A stretch of DNA of 27,530 nucleotides, from the IMG/VR virus record IMGVR_UViG_3300044993_000137, positions 1-27,530 of that record. One strand, 5' to 3'. Every line of letters starts with the position of its first letter. Position 1 is the first letter of the stretch. Origin of the DNA: a virus. Of this stretch, positions 18,528 through 24,761 are shown in pieces. The notes under the pieces are model-generated. The model was not told the DNA's origin. It worked only from the letters and a program-made list of their open reading frames with translations, and ran no database searches. Both the position numbers and the translations under genes were made by a program.

Positions 18528-18771
18528 GCGAAACCCGGACGCAACAAGCATCATCGCCAAATGGCCGAGCGCGTCTGCGCTGGCAGAGGACCTCGGGATC
18601 GCAACCGTCACGGTGCGAGCCTGGCGCACGCGAGGTATCCCAGCCAACCGCTGGACCGCAATTGTGCGCGCGGCGCAAGCGCGCGGCTTGCGCGGTGTTA
18701 GCTTGATTGCACTCGCGAGAGCGCACGAGCATAGGCCAGAAGCAACGCAGAAGACGCCACGCCATGAGTGA
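18526..18771 (+). CDS. HTH transcriptional regulator (Cro/carph-isopro-like), probably leaderless
   Basis: An 81-aa regulator. Motif layout: ALAEDLGIATVTVRAWRTRGIPANRWTAIVRAAQARGLRGVSL, a helix-turn-helix followed by the IP-x-x-R/Y-W...A...RG segment shared with the protein at 25168 (LIPSRYQPILLAAARKRGIALT). It starts at ATG 18526, seven bases after the -10, and no ribosome-binding site precedes it, so the mRNA is probably leaderless as with lambda cI from its maintenance promoter. It likely binds the operator next to it and controls both directions. Confidence 0.75.
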   Translation: MRNPDATSIIAKWPSASALAEDLGIATVTVRAWRTRGIPANRWTAIVRAAQARGLRGVSLIALARAHEHRPEATQKTPRHE

Positions 18772-19484
18772 TTGTAGAGCAGAGCCTACGCCGGTTGAAC
18801 AGTATCCCTGCCCGTGGAGACGGCGCGAGGTGATCGGGCTGGCGACCTTGTATCTCGGCGACTGCCGCGATATTGTGCCAACGCTTGCGCGTCCGGCAGC
18901 GGTGATCACCGACCCGCCTTATGGGCTTGGCGATCTTTGGCGAGGCGGCGCGAAGAAATGGCCGCTACGACACCGTGACGGGCTTGATCAAGGCGGCGCA
19001 TGGGACGCGACAAGGTGTGAGTTTGTTGTTCAGCTTCCCGGCCTATCAGCTTCCCGGCCTAGCTGATATCTGCATCATTTGGGGTGGACACCTATACGAG
19101 CGCCCGCCTGCGCGCGGATGGCTGGCATGGGACAAGATTGTCCGTGATTTCAGCAGCGGACATCTTGAGTTGGCCTGGACTACCTTGGATCAGCCCATCC
19201 GCGCGTTCAACTACTCGCACGGTCAGCTTGCAATCGAAGGCAAAGAACACCCCACGCAGAAGCCCATCGCCCTCATGCGTTGGTGCGTCCAGCAAGCGAA
19301 GGTCCCGCCCGGCGGCGTGATCCTCGATCCCTACATGGGTTCGGGCAGCACCGGTGTTGCCGCCGTGCAGTTGCGCCATCCCTTCATTGGGATCGAGATC
19401 GAAGAACGCTACTTTGACATTGCCTGTCGCCGCATCGCTGATGCGCAGCGGCAGGGCGACCTGTTCCGAGATGCAGTGGCATGA
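18764..19484 (+). pseudogene. DNA methyltransferase, frameshifted by a 16-bp tandem duplication
   Basis: An N4/N6 amino-methyltransferase of the DPPY type in two frames. Frame 1 (from ATG 18764, overlapping the HTH gene) holds YLGDCRDIVP and catalytic motif DPPYG (18911-18925), and ends in [16 protein letters not shown]. Frame 2 continues with [16 protein letters not shown] and SAM-binding motif [10 protein letters not shown], then [18 protein letters not shown], to 19484. The motif order (IV then I) is beta-type. The break is the 16-bp repeat TCAGCTTCCCGGCCTA at 19030-19045 and 19046-19061. Removing one copy restores [16 protein letters not shown] exactly. Either a dead gene or a reversible on/off switch; it would modify DNA to protect against restriction or mark it. 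Confidence 0.85.
19030..19061. repeat. Perfect 16-bp tandem duplication inside the methyltransferase gene
   Basis: Two adjacent copies of TCAGCTTCCCGGCCTA, 19030-19045 and 19046-19061. Sixteen is not divisible by three, so the extra copy shifts the reading frame. Confidence 0.97.
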
Positions 19485-19964: not shown

Positions 19965-20762
19965 TCAGTTCGCCGTCTCAGCCGACGCGACAACATCTTC
20001 CGTCGCGGTCGCCTGCACGATTGCGTCCAGTCGACTGCCGTTGCGACGCGGCTGTGCTGGTGACGCGTCAAGTTCAACGTCCTCGTCGACGCGTTCAACC
20101 GCCGAGACCAATCGCGCTACTGGATCACCTGGCCGATCGGTTGACAGCGGCAAGCGCTTGATCAGCCGCCGCAGCACGGTCTTACGCGCCATCTCGCCCC
20201 ACCACTGCGACCAGGCCGGACCGTCCTTTGACCGCGACACCGCGCGCACCTGTTCGATCTCGGCTCGAGACATGACCTCCGCCACCACCTCGCCAGACGT
20301 CAGCCGCGCGATTGCGTATGCACCTATTGGCTTGCCACGATCCTCAGCTAGCGACGGCACCGCGTGCTCGATCGGCCGTTCCGTGTCAGCCGGTCGCCAC
20401 ACAAACTGATCATGCTCGTACACGACCTGCGCGACCAGTGACTTAATCTGCCCGGAGTTGCGCGCGAGCATCATCAGCCCGCCGACCATGGGCATCCACT
20501 GCGCCTGCTCGCGGAAACCGACGATCGCGCCCTGTCGGCCGTCGGGCAGCAACCCATCCTGTGCGGCCCTCAGGCAAGCAAGGAACAGGCTCTGCCGATC
20601 GAGATTCAGCAGCGTCGGCGTATTCTGAATAGCCGTCACGACCACGCGCGTGAACTTTGCAGGTGTGATGTGCTCGGGCAACGCTGCGGCGATCTTGTCG
20701 CGTTGCGATTCCAAGATTGCGACAAACTCCGCAGCGCGTTCCTTCGTTGTGAGTGCGGTCAT
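19965..20762 (-). CDS. recT: RecT-family single-strand annealing recombinase
   Basis: A 265-aa RecT-type annealing protein that pairs complementary strands after exonuclease resection. Core features: LPEHITPAKFTRVVVTAIQN, SLFLACLRAAQDGLLPDGRQGA, MVGGLMMLARNSGQIKSLVAQVVYEHDQF, MSRAEIEQVRAVSRSKDGPAWSQWWGEMARKTVLRRLIKRLP. These are the hallmark RecT regions, in order. The start ATG overlaps the stop of the YqaJ exonuclease gene upstream (GAATGACC), with AAGGAG before it: classic exonuclease-annealase pair. Confidence 0.95.
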   Translation of the reverse strand: MTALTTKERAAEFVAILESQRDKIAAALPEHITPAKFTRVVVTAIQNTPTLLNLDRQSLFLACLRAAQDGLLPDGRQGAIVGFREQAQWMPMVGGLMMLARNSGQIKSLVAQVVYEHDQFVWRPADTERPIEHAVPSLAEDRGKPIGAYAIARLTSGEVVAEVMSRAEIEQVRAVSRSKDGPAWSQWWGEMARKTVLRRLIKRLPLSTDRPGDPVARLVSAVERVDEDVELDASPAQPRRNGSRLDAIVQATATEDVVASAETAN

Positions 20763-21754
20763 TCTTCGGTCTCCTTCTGCTGTTTCACAATCAGTCGCAC
20801 GCTTGCCGCGCGGCCAGGTAGCTTCTGGCCAACCATCTCAGGCGTGATCTCACGCGCAGGCTGCGCCGGTACATAAACGGCGCTGACGCGATACGCGCCC
20901 GCCGTGCCGTAGCGGTGGCCGCCGAGCTTCGCAATCAGCCGATTGCGAGCCTCGTCGCGCTGGCGCGTTAGCTCCGCAATCTGCGCGCTCAGTTCCAGAT
21001 AGCGCGCAGCAAGCGCGGAGGCCTCATCGTCACCGCTCCAGTCGGCTGGTGTGTCGTCCTGCGCTGCATCAGCCACCAGCGCGCGATATGTCGCGTCAGA
21101 TCCATCAGGCGCGGGTGGCCGGTTCTCTGCGATCGATCGCCAGAACGCCTCTACGCGCCGACGAATCTCATCGTGGACGTCGGGTCGCGCGGCATAGCGG
21201 TAGACGCGCAACTCATTCCCGCCGACCAGCGCAGCGATCGCGCCCCACTGATAGCCGGTGGCAAGCAACTGCGCCTGGAGCTGCAGCAGGATGTGCAGCG
21301 GAGGTTCGCCGTCCCAACGTTCGCGATGCGTGATCCAGTCGACGTTCTTGAGTTCGAGCACGCCAGGTCCGGATGCTGCATCACCCAGCGCGGCGCGATC
21401 GGCGGAGGTCGGCTCCGCAATGCATCGGTCCAGCGTCGCGCCGAGCCCGCCGCAGGTCGCGTAGACACCTGGCAAGAGAAGCCATCCCTCGCGTTCGGCT
21501 GCAGCGGCGGCGATGGCGTCCTCAAGTCGCAGTCCCCAGGCCGCGCGCTCCGCTGTGACGTCAGGCGGTTCCATGCGGCCCGCCTTCACCAGCCACAGCG
21601 CGTAGACGCCCATCGCGTAAGCAGGCTGCGCGCTGAACAGCGCTGCGACTTCTGATGCGCCGATGTATCGACGTCGCAACGCCAGCCACGCATCACGATC
21701 CTCTGGAATCGGACGGATCGTGCGATCGAGGTGTTGGGTTCGCTCCTGGATCAT
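20759..21754 (-). CDS. YqaJ-type phage exonuclease (RecT partner)
   Basis: A 331-aa exonuclease of the YqaJ/lambda Exo fold that would resect ends for RecT. Visible residues: RRRYIGASEVAALF near the N-terminus, E78 in GLRLEDAIA, GATLDR with D109, and LELKNVDW with E134-x-K136. The end has a coiled coil (LELSAQIAELTRQRDEARNRL). The start ATG (21754) lies inside the last variable block of the 18-bp array; the first residues MIQERT come from array units, and an in-frame TGA lies just upstream. Ribosome binding must use array DNA (GAGAGCGAGCC). Confidence 0.93.
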   Translation of the reverse strand: MIQERTQHLDRTIRPIPEDRDAWLALRRRYIGASEVAALFSAQPAYAMGVYALWLVKAGRMEPPDVTAERAAWGLRLEDAIAAAAAEREGWLLLPGVYATCGGLGATLDRCIAEPTSADRAALGDAASGPGVLELKNVDWITHRERWDGEPPLHILLQLQAQLLATGYQWGAIAALVGGNELRVYRYAARPDVHDEIRRRVEAFWRSIAENRPPAPDGSDATYRALVADAAQDDTPADWSGDDEASALAARYLELSAQIAELTRQRDEARNRLIAKLGGHRYGTAGAYRVSAVYVPAQPAREITPEMVGQKLPGRAASVRLIVKQQKETEE

Positions 21755-22339
21755 GGCTCGCTCTCAGAAGTCGGTTCTGTCCTGTGTCACGGCTCGCTCA
21801 CCGCTGACGGTCCTCTCACGAAACGCGGCTTGCTCGACGGCTACGGTTCTCTCACGATTAACGGCTCGCTCGCGATTGACGGTTCCCACTGACGTGGCGG
21901 CTCACTCGCGATAACCGGCACTCTCCGCGCCGACGGCTTGCTCCCTGCGTCTGGTGCTCTCAGAGCTGACGGCTCGCTCATCACATCCGGGTCTCTTCGC
22001 CGGCTAGGCTCGCTCCAACCCCTCGGTTCTCTCGGGTCATCCGGCTCGCTCGCAATCCCAGGTTCTGTCCGGCCATTCGGCTCGCTCGCGTGCTACGGTT
22101 CTCTCAACCACCGTGGCTCGCTGATACGCAACGGTTCTTTCGGGCTGCACGGCTCGCTCGCGGGGAACGGTTCTCTCCCGATGCCTGGCTCGCTCGTCGT
22201 GTGTGGTGCTCTCTTGCGGAGTGGCTTGCTCATGGCGCATGGTTCTCTCCGCTTGCGCGGCTCGCTCACCATTTACGTGTCGCTCTCTTTTTTCGGCTCG
22301 CTCCAGCGGTTCGGTTCTCTCACGCTATATGGCTCGCTC
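21737..22339. repeat. Phased 18-bp constant/variable array, 34 units, alternating A and B constant blocks
   Basis: Thirty-four units on an exact 18-bp pitch with no indel over 603 bp: 9-bp constant plus 9-bp variable. Even units (from 21755, every 36 bp) read GGCTCGCTC (12 of 17 exact, the rest one change). Odd units (from 21737) read GGTTCTCTC (6 of 17 exact, most others 1-2 changes, the last weak one at 22277 GTGTCGCTC). All 33 nine-base spacers differ, though many end in AC before the next GG. On the transcribed (-) strand the blocks read GAGCGAGCC and GAGAGAACC. The gap 21755-22343 (589 bp) has no other gene. Five stops break the (-) frame and one breaks the (+) frame (TGA at 21890), so it is not clearly coding. 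Not a CRISPR. Unknown. Confidence 0.93.
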
Positions 22340-22343
22340 GGCG

Positions 22344-23177
22344 CTACTGCATCGGCCAGTTCGGCGGGCCGATGTAGTGCGCATGGCCCTTGATCGCGAT
22401 GATGTAAGGCTTGGGCGGCGGCTCTCTGAACGTCACTTCATACATGACGTGGTGCAGATGGGCGAGGAACAACTTCACCGCGTATCTCTCAGCGCGAAGC
22501 TGAATACGCGCAGGCGGTAGACGACCAGCCTCGTAGTGCTTCCGCGCTTCGGTATCGGCACCGAATCGCTTGGTCCGCAGCGCTTCGGCTGCCTGCTCGG
22601 CGTACTCGCCCGCTTCATTTTTCGCGATCTCGTAGGCCTTGCGGGCTTTGTAAATCTGGCCATAGAACGCGTCGTCTGCGTTTGACACTTTCACAAAAGA
22701 CTGTCCCGCCTTCCAAGCGACGAGCTTTAACGCGGCATTCCACGGGCGCTTCTGGCCCTTCTCCCATTTCACAGTCGGATCAAGCCCGGCGAACCGCCAA
22801 ATGTGCCCAACCGTCGGCGCCTTGCGGATGTCAATGTGCGCAAGCAGACCCGCTGCAATCACTGGGCCGATCCCCTTCACAGTCATCAGCCACGCGCCGA
22901 CCGGATGATGCTCGACGTAAATGCCGAGCGTTCTCTTGATTTGCGCCTCAATGCGCTCATGCCGCTGCGCCAGCCATTCAAGCATGGCGTGCGGCGCGCC
23001 TTCCTGCACACAGGCGCGGACTTGCGCAGCATCGCGGATGCGATCCTTCTGCATCTGGTAATACGCCGCTACCAGATACTTCGCTTCGCGATCGCCAAGC
23101 GTCTTACACGCCTCTTTGAGATCGCGAGTGATCCGCCACTCGGCGGCGTCGTCAAGCGTTCCCATCGTTCTCTCCAT
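22344..23177 (-). CDS. IS110-transposase-like protein without the N-terminal RuvC domain
   Basis: A 277-aa protein. Residues ~100-170 match the C-terminal transposase_20 domain of IS110 elements: helix-hairpin-helix VKGIGPVIAAGLLAHI, then HIWRFAGLDP and WNAALKLVAWKAG. A helical coil precedes it (HERIEAQIKRTLG). The N-terminal ~90 residues are helical and lack the DEDD RuvC fold, and the region where IS110 has its catalytic serine reads WEKGQKRP with no serine. So it is not an active mobile transposase; it may be a DNA- or RNA-binding relative. Start 23177 or the second ATG at 23165 (M5); the latter follows GGAGAGAACG. The stop abuts the 18-bp array. Confidence 0.75.
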   Translation of the reverse strand: MERTMGTLDDAAEWRITRDLKEACKTLGDREAKYLVAAYYQMQKDRIRDAAQVRACVQEGAPHAMLEWLAQRHERIEAQIKRTLGIYVEHHPVGAWLMTVKGIGPVIAAGLLAHIDIRKAPTVGHIWRFAGLDPTVKWEKGQKRPWNAALKLVAWKAGQSFVKVSNADDAFYGQIYKARKAYEIAKNEAGEYAEQAAEALRTKRFGADTEARKHYEAGRLPPARIQLRAERYAVKLFLAHLHHVMYEVTFREPPPKPYIIAIKGHAHYIGPPNWPMQ

Positions 23178-23211: not shown

Positions 23212-23703
23212 CTAACCCATCATGCGCGCCAGCCACCGTTGCGCAACAACAGAAACCGGCTCGGGCTTAGTTGGCGCATCATCAGTCAGCTTCGGCGCGC
23301 GCTCTCTCGCCGCGTGTTCGATAATCCCAAGCACGCCGAGTTCGTGCACCGCCCGGCGCCGCACCTCCACCGGAAGATCGTTCACTCTTCGGGTTGCCTC
23401 GTTGATTGAACGTGCCGCGCGCTTGGCTGAACGCGCGATATGCTTGCGCGCGGCTGGGGCGACCACGGCAACGGTGCGTTCGGCGTCAAGGCGCTGGTAT
23501 CCAATGCCGCGCACGCTGGCGAAGACGGCCCCGGCTTCGCGCTCCACAACACGTCGCGCGGTGACAATGATGTGGCGATGCTTTCGGATGTCGCGGCCGA
23601 TGGCGTCAGACATGGAAGCAAGGCTGACAGTGTCGCCGATCGGGCACGCTAACAGCAGATCCGCGATAGCGCGGGTGTCAGCAGAGAGTTCAGTTATAAG
23701 CAT
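23212..23703 (-). CDS. Winged-helix-like phage protein, probably DNA-binding
   Basis: A 163-aa protein from ATG 23703, with AGGAGGT upstream. The N-terminal ~75 residues look like a winged helix: PIGDTVSLASMSDAIGRDIRKHRHIIVTARRVVEREAGAVFASVRGIGYQRL, whose end (VRGIGY.RL) resembles the wing of response-regulator effector domains. The rest is a basic helical region (RKHIARSAKRAARSINEATRRVND). The role is unknown; position between the arrays and the recombination genes makes an operon regulator or DNA organiser plausible. Confidence 0.7.
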   Translation of the reverse strand: MLITELSADTRAIADLLLACPIGDTVSLASMSDAIGRDIRKHRHIIVTARRVVEREAGAVFASVRGIGYQRLDAERTVAVVAPAARKHIARSAKRAARSINEATRRVNDLPVEVRRRAVHELGVLGIIEHAARERAPKLTDDAPTKPEPVSVVAQRWLARMMG

Positions 23704-23730: not shown

Positions 23731-23880
23731 GCGTTGCGTGGCGACGCGGAGCGGTGCGACGCGAAGCGTCGCGGAGCGCTGCGGCGCGGAGCGCGGCGCT
23801 GCGGGACGTTGCGCGGAGACGCGAGACGTTGCGTCGCGAGGCGTGGCAATGCGGAGCGGAGCGACGCGCTATGGTGCGCA
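23731..23880. repeat. Phased pentamer array B1, (GCG)NN, 30 units
   Basis: Thirty consecutive 5-bp units with constant GCG and two variable bases, no indels; 25 are exact GCG and the others are ACG, GAG, GCA or ATG. The variable pairs are highly diverse (TT, TG, AC, GA, GT, AA, TC ...). It lies in the leader of the winged-helix gene and ends 27 bp from its start codon. No reading frame is kept because the pitch is five. Confidence 0.92.
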
Positions 23881-23881
23881 T

Positions 23882-23941
23882 GGCACCTCGGACCGTCTGT
23901 GGCCCAGGCGGTCGAAGGTGCCAGCCCCCGAAGGGGCTGGC
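23882..23941 (-). other. Paired hairpins between arrays B1 and B2
   Basis: Hairpin 1: arms GGCACCT (23882-23888) / AGGTGCC (23916-23922), plus inner GACCG / CGGTC and CTG / CAG. Hairpin 2: GCCAGCCCC (23920-23928) / GGGGCTGGC (23933-23941), 9 bp; on the - strand the loop is TTCG closed by C-G, the stable cUUCGg type. The two share three bases, so they partly compete. No T-run follows, so termination is unlikely to be intrinsic. The insert spans 65 bp, so the arrays on both sides keep the same 5-bp phase. Confidence 0.8.
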
Positions 23942-23945
23942 CGTC

Positions 23946-24065
23946 GCGGTGCATTGCGGGACGATGAGGTGCAACGCGGCGCGGCGAGTCGCGGCGCAGC
24001 GCGCTGCGATGCGCTGCGAAGCGTGGCGCCAAGGCGCGTGGCGGCGCGGCGCGATGCGGCGCATC
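23946..24065. repeat. Phased pentamer array B2, (GCG)NN, 24 units
   Basis: Twenty-four consecutive 5-bp units, 16 exact GCG; the rest are GCA (4), GAG (2), ACG and AAG. In phase with B1 across the hairpins. It ends inside the stop codon of the gene at 24064-24657. The gap 23704-24063 holds only B1, hairpins and B2. Confidence 0.9.
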
Positions 24066-24681: not shown

Positions 24682-24761
24682 ACGTTGCGTTGCGCTGCGA
24701 CGCGGGGCAGAGCACTGCGCAGCGGTGCGGCGCGCCGCGCAGCGTGGCGTGGCGCCGCGCT
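24682..24761. repeat. Phased pentamer array C, (GCG)NN, 16 units
   Basis: Sixteen 5-bp units, 13 exact GCG, the rest ACG and GCA, no indels. It ends 24 bp from the start codon of the 197-aa gene. The stretch between the array and the ribosome-binding site (GCGTTGTTAGGACGTTGCG on the + strand) resembles that beside array B1 (GCGTTGGTTGATGAGGCGTT), so the two leaders share an origin. Confidence 0.9.

Follow-up and report, generated by a model that had tools for sequence, protein, structure and literature searches.

The viral contig IMGVR_UViG_3300044993_000137, analysed here over a stretch of 27,530 nucleotides (the window), raises the question of what purpose is served by a highly regular array of short repeats at positions 21737-22339. 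A preliminary description of the sequence offered four roles for the array, namely a binding array for a phage protein, a guide-like RNA, a recombination substrate or a dead coding repeat, and added 'I do not recognise it'. It can now be recognised: with the adjoining gene, it very probably forms a dual-repeat TIGR-TasA system of a tailed soil phage, acting through RNA-guided DNA binding (a joint claim with a probability of roughly 0.9). TIGR (Tandem Interspaced Guide RNA) systems were first described in 2025 by Faure et al (PMC12045711). The kind is thus already known, the window providing a newly found and well-established member, and it is the guide-like RNA that gains support, as the array matches this RNA-guided family. 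The elements concerned, with the two alternating repeats termed edge and loop, are as follows.

21737-22339, minus strand: TIGR array of 34 repeats with an 18-bp pitch and 33 complete 9-nt spacers, defined from the sequence.
22331-22339, minus strand: GAGCGAGCC, the first of 17 edge repeats, which are spaced 36 bp apart down to 21755.
22313-22321, minus strand: GAGAGAACC, the first of 17 loop repeats, which have the same 36-bp spacing down to 21737 and are more degenerate.
21719-21736, minus strand: probable last spacer B (CAACACCTC) and a degenerate or truncated edge repeat (GATCGCACG), inside the yqaJ open reading frame.
22344-23177, minus strand: tasA, encoding a 277-residue Nop-domain RNA-guided protein without a nuclease domain (from NCBIfam, PDB, an AlphaFold2 model and Foldseek).

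The coordinates of the array, its 18-bp pitch without a single indel, its two constant blocks and its 33 distinct 9-bp spacers all agree with the preliminary description, and the proposal that alternation, phase and free spacers are under selection is borne out. It was, however, read on the plus strand, whereas the relevant strand is the minus, on which the array reads GAGCGAGCC-N9-GAGAGAACC-N9. A scan of the window for 16 copies of a period-36 pattern reaches its maximum at the array, with a summed information of 35.7 bits, as against 10.6 ± 0.5 (maximum 11.6) in 30 first-order Markov simulations of the window with the same dinucleotide make-up (z approximately 54). On the minus strand, mean information per column is 1.85 bits in the edge repeat, 0.26 in spacer A, 1.49 in the loop repeat and 0.32 in spacer B, and even the closest pair among the 33 complete spacers differs at two of nine positions. 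Two blocks do alternate, but not as strictly as had been claimed: 31 of the 34 repeats are of the expected type, and repeats resembling block A occupy block B positions at 22277 and 21737. The bias towards spacers ending in AC on the plus strand corresponds, on the minus strand, to a preference for a purine at the first spacer position, found in 31 of 33 cases (and in approximately 94% over all arrays), which is read here as part of box C (CCA/CCG).

By definition, a dual-repeat TIGR array comprises alternating repeats of 8-12 nt, 9-nt spacers and a 36-nt unit, its repeats having a common box D start and a common box C end (PMC12045711). The array in the window has two alternating repeats, spacers of approximately 9 nt and a 36-nt unit, and both repeats share the ends GA...CC(R), corresponding to box D and box C, which covary between edge and loop in this family; these ends are common to the edge and loop repeats of most relatives, and similar ends occur in the arrays of Salicola and Microcystis phages. 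The assignment of the edge repeat is based on the phase of units shared between arrays, considered below, and on the array of Salicola phage CGphi29. The RNA of the array is less structured than its shuffled counterparts (z = +2.8), which fits a dual-repeat array rather than a stem-loop array, and no Rfam match was found.

The second component is the gene tasA, which ends 4 bp from the start of the array, the latter lying directly downstream on the minus strand. Its product scores 207.8 bits against the NCBIfam model TIGR_Tas_endo (NF052498; cut-off 100) and 33 bits against the IS110 equivalog (cut-off 140), and hence the earlier label 'IS110-like gene' has to be replaced: this is a Tas protein, not a transposase. 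Searches of PDB with phmmer and hmmsearch matched TasR (9mty, 1.6e-14) and also TasH (21kl), and a profile of 50 members retrieved TasR 9mty at 1.5e-25 and TasH at 5e-17, with IS621 at only 1e-4. The AlphaFold2 model is all-helical (mean predicted local distance difference test score 89.5, predicted template modelling score 0.86); when used to query Foldseek, 11 TasH and TasR chains came top (E-values down to 5e-8), with IS110 recombinases appearing only from 1e-2, after a gap of two orders of magnitude. A Nop-domain Tas gene, by both sequence and fold, is therefore what adjoins the array. No HNH or RuvC domain was found by Pfam in the 50 members, 37 of which match Transposase_20, as does the window protein, and the model contains no RNase H, DEDD/RuvC or beta-beta-alpha fold. 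The lack of HNH and RuvC domains identifies the protein as the TasA subtype. A search of plasmids returned only distant matches, mostly IS110-like.

As IS110 and Tas proteins share a Nop-like RNA-binding domain (Pfam Transposase_20), the array might be regarded as an operator-like protein-binding or recombination substrate that has no guide function and is served by an IS110-type transposase. However, the IS110/IS621 recombinases, although similar in this fold, use a single bridge RNA and possess a DEDD/RuvC domain, whereas the window contains a guide array and a protein that falls below the IS110 cut-off and has no such domain in its model. With the spacers all different and the architecture matching that of TIGR, this explanation is highly improbable; neither the protein-binding array nor the recombination substrate of the preliminary description is supported, the system belonging to an RNA-guided family and the adjoining gene being tas rather than that of a transposase.

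Comparison with characterised systems leads to the same identification. SpTIGR, the TIGR-TasH system of Salicola phage CGphi29, also comes from a tailed phage and has an array of period 36 adjoining its tas gene. As a positive control for the same detector, this array gave a period of 36, an edge repeat of (A)AGCGAGCCA and a loop repeat of (A)AGACAACCA; the repeat cores are GCGAGCC and GACAACC, as compared with GCGAGCC and GAGAACC in the window. It gives rise experimentally to 36-nt guide RNAs, or tigRNAs (PMC12045711). Its Tas protein differs from that of the window in having an HNH nuclease domain, and shares approximately 27% identity with it over 45% of the query. The TIGR-TasA system of Flavonifractor plautii (FpTIGR; PMC12045711) is alike by description, consisting of a Nop-only effector and a dual-repeat array, and FpTasA bound 36-nt RNAs (PMC12045711). 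Arrays of clustered regularly interspaced short palindromic repeats (CRISPR) are similar in combining repeats with different spacers, and in the proposed direction of guides against foreign DNA, but the repeats in the window are 9 nt long and of two kinds, its spacers are 9 nt, and a target would be read as two halves on opposite strands. The locus does not have the Cas proteins and 25-36-nt direct repeats of a CRISPR-Cas system: its repeats are too short, and no match in the PADLOC defence-system library was found for tasA and the two proteins encoded upstream of it.

Some observations weigh against this reading. There is no terminator near 21700, where the array instead runs into yqaJ; yqaJ-recT lies downstream in the near relatives, which gives some plausibility to a role tied to phage recombination; and a search for targets of the window array yielded none in 2 Mb of DNA from related phages and none that was convincing in IMG/VR. 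A typical, though not universal, TIGR array has a 5'-truncated first edge, a truncated last edge and a rho-independent terminator, and usually consists of 5-15 units (PMC12045711). That of the window differs in having 17 units, no terminator and an overlap with the start of yqaJ; its first edge repeat is complete, and a degenerate half edge repeat may end it, as the array probably extends by one more spacer (21728-21736) to this half repeat, completing the 17 units. Since the published wording describes truncated ends and a terminator only as typical, their absence does not exclude membership of the TIGR family.

A protein-only search of IMG/VR yielded 80 loci with relatives of TasA, at 43-96% identity. 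Of these 80 viral relatives, 63 have a period-36 array next to tasA and on its strand, in which the edge and loop repeats can be recognised (GAGCGAGCC/GAGAGHACC or variants of these), amounting to 1122 units with those of the window included; a further two loci (L043 and L078) gave scores at periods of 35 and 34. The linkage of array and Tas protein is conserved, but the other neighbours of tasA mostly differ among relatives, except in L001-L003, and form a mixture of helicases, primases, recombination genes (RecT/RecE), integrases, ParB-like proteins and terminases, in which no fixed partner gene for TasA was found. A collection of phages contained relatives only in Salicola phage CGphi29 and Microcystis phage Mvi-JY20, and species genomes contained one close relative, a prophage of Acidobacteriaceae bacterium KBS 96.

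The relatives also bear on the suggestion that the array once encoded a repetitive protein (Gly-Ser-Leu or Glu-Arg-Ala) and has degenerated. The period is divisible by three, and on the plus strand one frame stays open over 149 codons, but any fully open frame exists in only 5 of 51 homologous arrays, with frames and strands differing between them, and it is at the nucleotide level that the repeats next to a Tas gene are conserved. The likelihood of a coding repeat, dead or otherwise, is therefore negligible.

Two further occurrences were seen in the course of these searches. The isolated cyanophage Mvi-JY20 (PP438412.1, approximately 21367-22430; L190:3830-4900) has an unannotated TIGR system, consisting of a Tas relative and a period-36 array with a terminator-like sequence after it. 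In kin phages that lack a TIGR array, a 101-residue open reading frame downstream of recT (L098:12367-12669 and L097:5461-5763) resembles the first 46 residues of TasA, and is possibly a remnant or a separate small protein.

The original description of TIGR-Tas left open what its targets are in nature, where its spacers originate and how a nuclease-free TasA is used, and arrays of very close phages were hard to obtain (PMC12045711). The 80 viral relatives make the questions of target and array growth testable, as they include very close arrays that can be compared unit by unit, as well as one host genome with a plausible target. Unit-by-unit comparison of five near relatives (the window, L001, L002, L003 and L094) found 35 instances in which a unit shared out of context between close arrays has the edge-A-loop-B phase, as against 2 with the other phase, and edge-A-loop-B is hence the unit of inheritance. 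This supports the published unit model from inheritance alone. Close arrays are largely collinear in the half nearest yqaJ, while most units in the half nearest tasA differ and some of those that are shared stand in another order. Whole units turn over between close relatives, and the pattern hints at a polarity of this turnover, although recombination anchored in yqaJ would look alike. Near-identical units are approximately 18 times commoner within arrays (29 of 11,719 pairs) than between unrelated arrays (82 of 583,106), and those in one array are mostly 1-4 units apart, which implies that arrays grow at least partly by duplication. Matched units differ at approximately 6-8% of sites, in repeats and spacers alike, as compared with 16-33% at the third positions of codons in the adjoining genes, a comparison that is biased by the matching only of units that are already similar. 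Arrays contain 17-35 guides, which differ between close relatives.

Transcription, processing and DNA binding in the window would be expected to follow the characterised relatives. TasA dimers would bind the minus-strand transcript of the array, which would be cut midway through every edge repeat, giving seventeen 36-nt tigRNAs, each laid out as edge half, spacer A, loop, spacer B and edge half, and so containing two spacers. By homology with FpTasA, TaTasR and SpTasH, spacer A would pair with one strand of the target and spacer B with the other; with neither HNH nor RuvC, TasA would be predicted to bind and bend the target without cutting it. The most likely use of a nuclease-free TasA is to block transcription or replication of other mobile elements, above all of related competing phages, and there is approximately an even chance of such an anti-phage role, for which limited evidence comes from one relative.

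Targets were sought in the geometry T1, in which one strand reads 5'-spacer A-reverse complement of spacer B-3'. It was derived from the published 8-nt 3' overhang and 'C-5' rule (PMC12045711), although one sentence of that paper can be read the opposite way. A search with 886 tigRNAs of up to 2.2 Mb of masked, de-duplicated DNA from TIGR phages, scored for exact, mismatched, gapped, clustered and codon-aware matches in the published and control geometries, revealed no overall excess of T1 matches. Scans of IMG/VR with two tigRNAs of the window gave 4 and 2 matches when the published geometry was used, as against 0 and 2 with the alternative one, numbers indistinguishable from chance, and kin phages with RecT/YqaJ but without a TIGR array (L097-L099) showed no excess as targets of the window lineage.

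The prophage of KBS 96 (L019/L082), the only close relative with a sequenced host, has an array of five complete tigRNAs. In T1, tigRNA1 matches the host chromosome at 17 of 18 positions, tigRNA4 at 15 of 18 and tigRNA5 at 13 of 18, and all three matches lie within 910 bp (6,329,052-6,329,962). The site belongs to a second prophage on the same chromosome (L196:18961-19734, L191:1743-2003), the genes of which include an integrase, an excisionase-like gene matched by tigRNA1, an O-like replication gene matched by tigRNA4 and tigRNA5 (a weak call, E 0.004), a protease and a major head protein. In translation the differences are ICPQAT versus VCPEAT, (L)TYKPG(V) versus (L)TYKPG(I) and IKAESN versus VKAESN, and look like those between homologous coding sequences. 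The TIGR prophage has its own homologue of the replication gene (59% over the C-terminal half), in which the tigRNA4 site has 7 differences from the guide in 18 positions.

As a control, within 80 kb the five native spacer pairs gave three matches at no more than 2 of 16 mismatches and 20 mispaired combinations gave none, while in 400 kb of the rest of the KBS 96 genome native pairs gave none and mispaired ones four. Of 400 simulated 6.7-Mb genomes, one produced a cluster of three tigRNAs within 1 kb with 7 mismatches, as compared with the 5 observed; the others had more than 7 or no cluster, and thus none was as good as KBS 96. By extrapolation, such a cluster would arise by chance in a few of 10,000 cases, a figure that takes no account of how geometry and gap were chosen. 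The case comes from a single host, and only one of its three matches is close to perfect. A scan of IMG/VR with the core of the tigRNA1 target found it in nine contigs, in different genes.

A second case is a lead only. Two guides of another array (L041) match a control region of another TIGR phage, that of L026 (G015; L135:7425-7590), at 16 of 16 and 15 of 16 core positions, 146 bp apart; the first match spans the spacer and -10 box of what resembles a promoter (TTGACA-17-TATAAT, near-consensus sigma-70). Pairs no more than 500 bp apart and with a total of fewer than three mismatches did not occur in any control geometry or permutation, but AT-rich guides fit promoters easily.

If the KBS 96 target is genuine, it would be the first natural target of a TIGR system; phages would then be employing compact nuclease-free systems, with no need of a protospacer-adjacent motif, as natural RNA-guided repressors directed at their kin, and a cultured soil bacterium would be available for testing this. 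The fuller proposal, that TIGR-TasA arrays of this clade are inter-phage weapons whose whole tigRNAs are traded, duplicated and replaced, and which target early regions (excision, replication, promoter) of competing related phages while sparing the homologue of the owner, is tentative, at odds slightly short of even. Guides might instead regulate genes of the phage itself or its host: binding by a nuclease-free TasA would be harmless, and one prophage tigRNA does have a 17/18 match in the host chromosome. Yet the DNA of the phages themselves contains no excess of matches relative to control geometries or permuted spacer pairs, and the sole host match lies in another prophage, the homologous gene of the TIGR prophage itself having no good match. 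Such self-regulation is accordingly doubtful.

The position of the array next to recombination genes raises a further possibility. The neighbouring genes are as follows.

20759-21754, minus strand: YqaJ/RecE-like exonuclease (Pfam YqaJ, phrog_434), with its ATG in the last spacer A of the array.
19965-20762, minus strand: RecT annealing protein (Pfam RecT, 6e-40), downstream in the same direction.
23212-23703, minus strand: 163-residue protein upstream of tasA, without a match to any family and retained in near relatives only.

Contrary to the preliminary description, the array is not confined to the interval between tasA and yqaJ, because the yqaJ ATG (21754) is inside its last spacer A. The last unit therefore encodes the first residues of YqaJ (MIQERT..), an arrangement common to close relatives: in the window, L001, L002 and L094 this unit is GAGCGAGCC ATGATCCAG GAG(C/A)GAACC CAACACCTC, with a variant in L003. 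YqaJ starts as MIQERTQHLDRTIRPIPEDR in the window and, more shortly, as MTRTVRAIPEDR in L099, a relative without a TIGR array in the stretch fetched. Together, the overlap and the shorter start in L099 imply that the array supplies the start and approximately nine residues of YqaJ. Were TasA-dependent processing to cut the last edge repeat mid-way, the yqaJ message would begin 5 nt before the start codon.

Rather than a weapon, TasA with its tigRNAs may be an RNA-guided aid to recombination or integration by the phage itself, bending DNA near RecT and YqaJ, an idea raised for the family by its discoverers (PMC12045711). The fusion of the array to the beginning of yqaJ-recT, in the window and in near relatives, is consistent with this, as are the helicases, primases, RecT/RecE and integrases near tasA elsewhere. 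However, homologues of the window YqaJ and RecT were found in only 4 and 3 of the 80 relatives respectively, within the stretches fetched, and 17-35 guides that vary between close relatives are ill-suited to one fixed integration site. A role as a recombination helper is therefore considered unlikely.

The 163-residue protein is the one that the preliminary description took to have a winged helix. Elsewhere in the window, the reading frame of a DNA methylase is split between two frames (18707-19484), with a perfect 16-bp tandem duplication (19030-19061) near the frame change. GC-rich, degenerate short tandem repeats with periods of 15-22, unrelated to the TIGR array, are present around the 5' part of the operon at 23740-24062 and 24702-24760.
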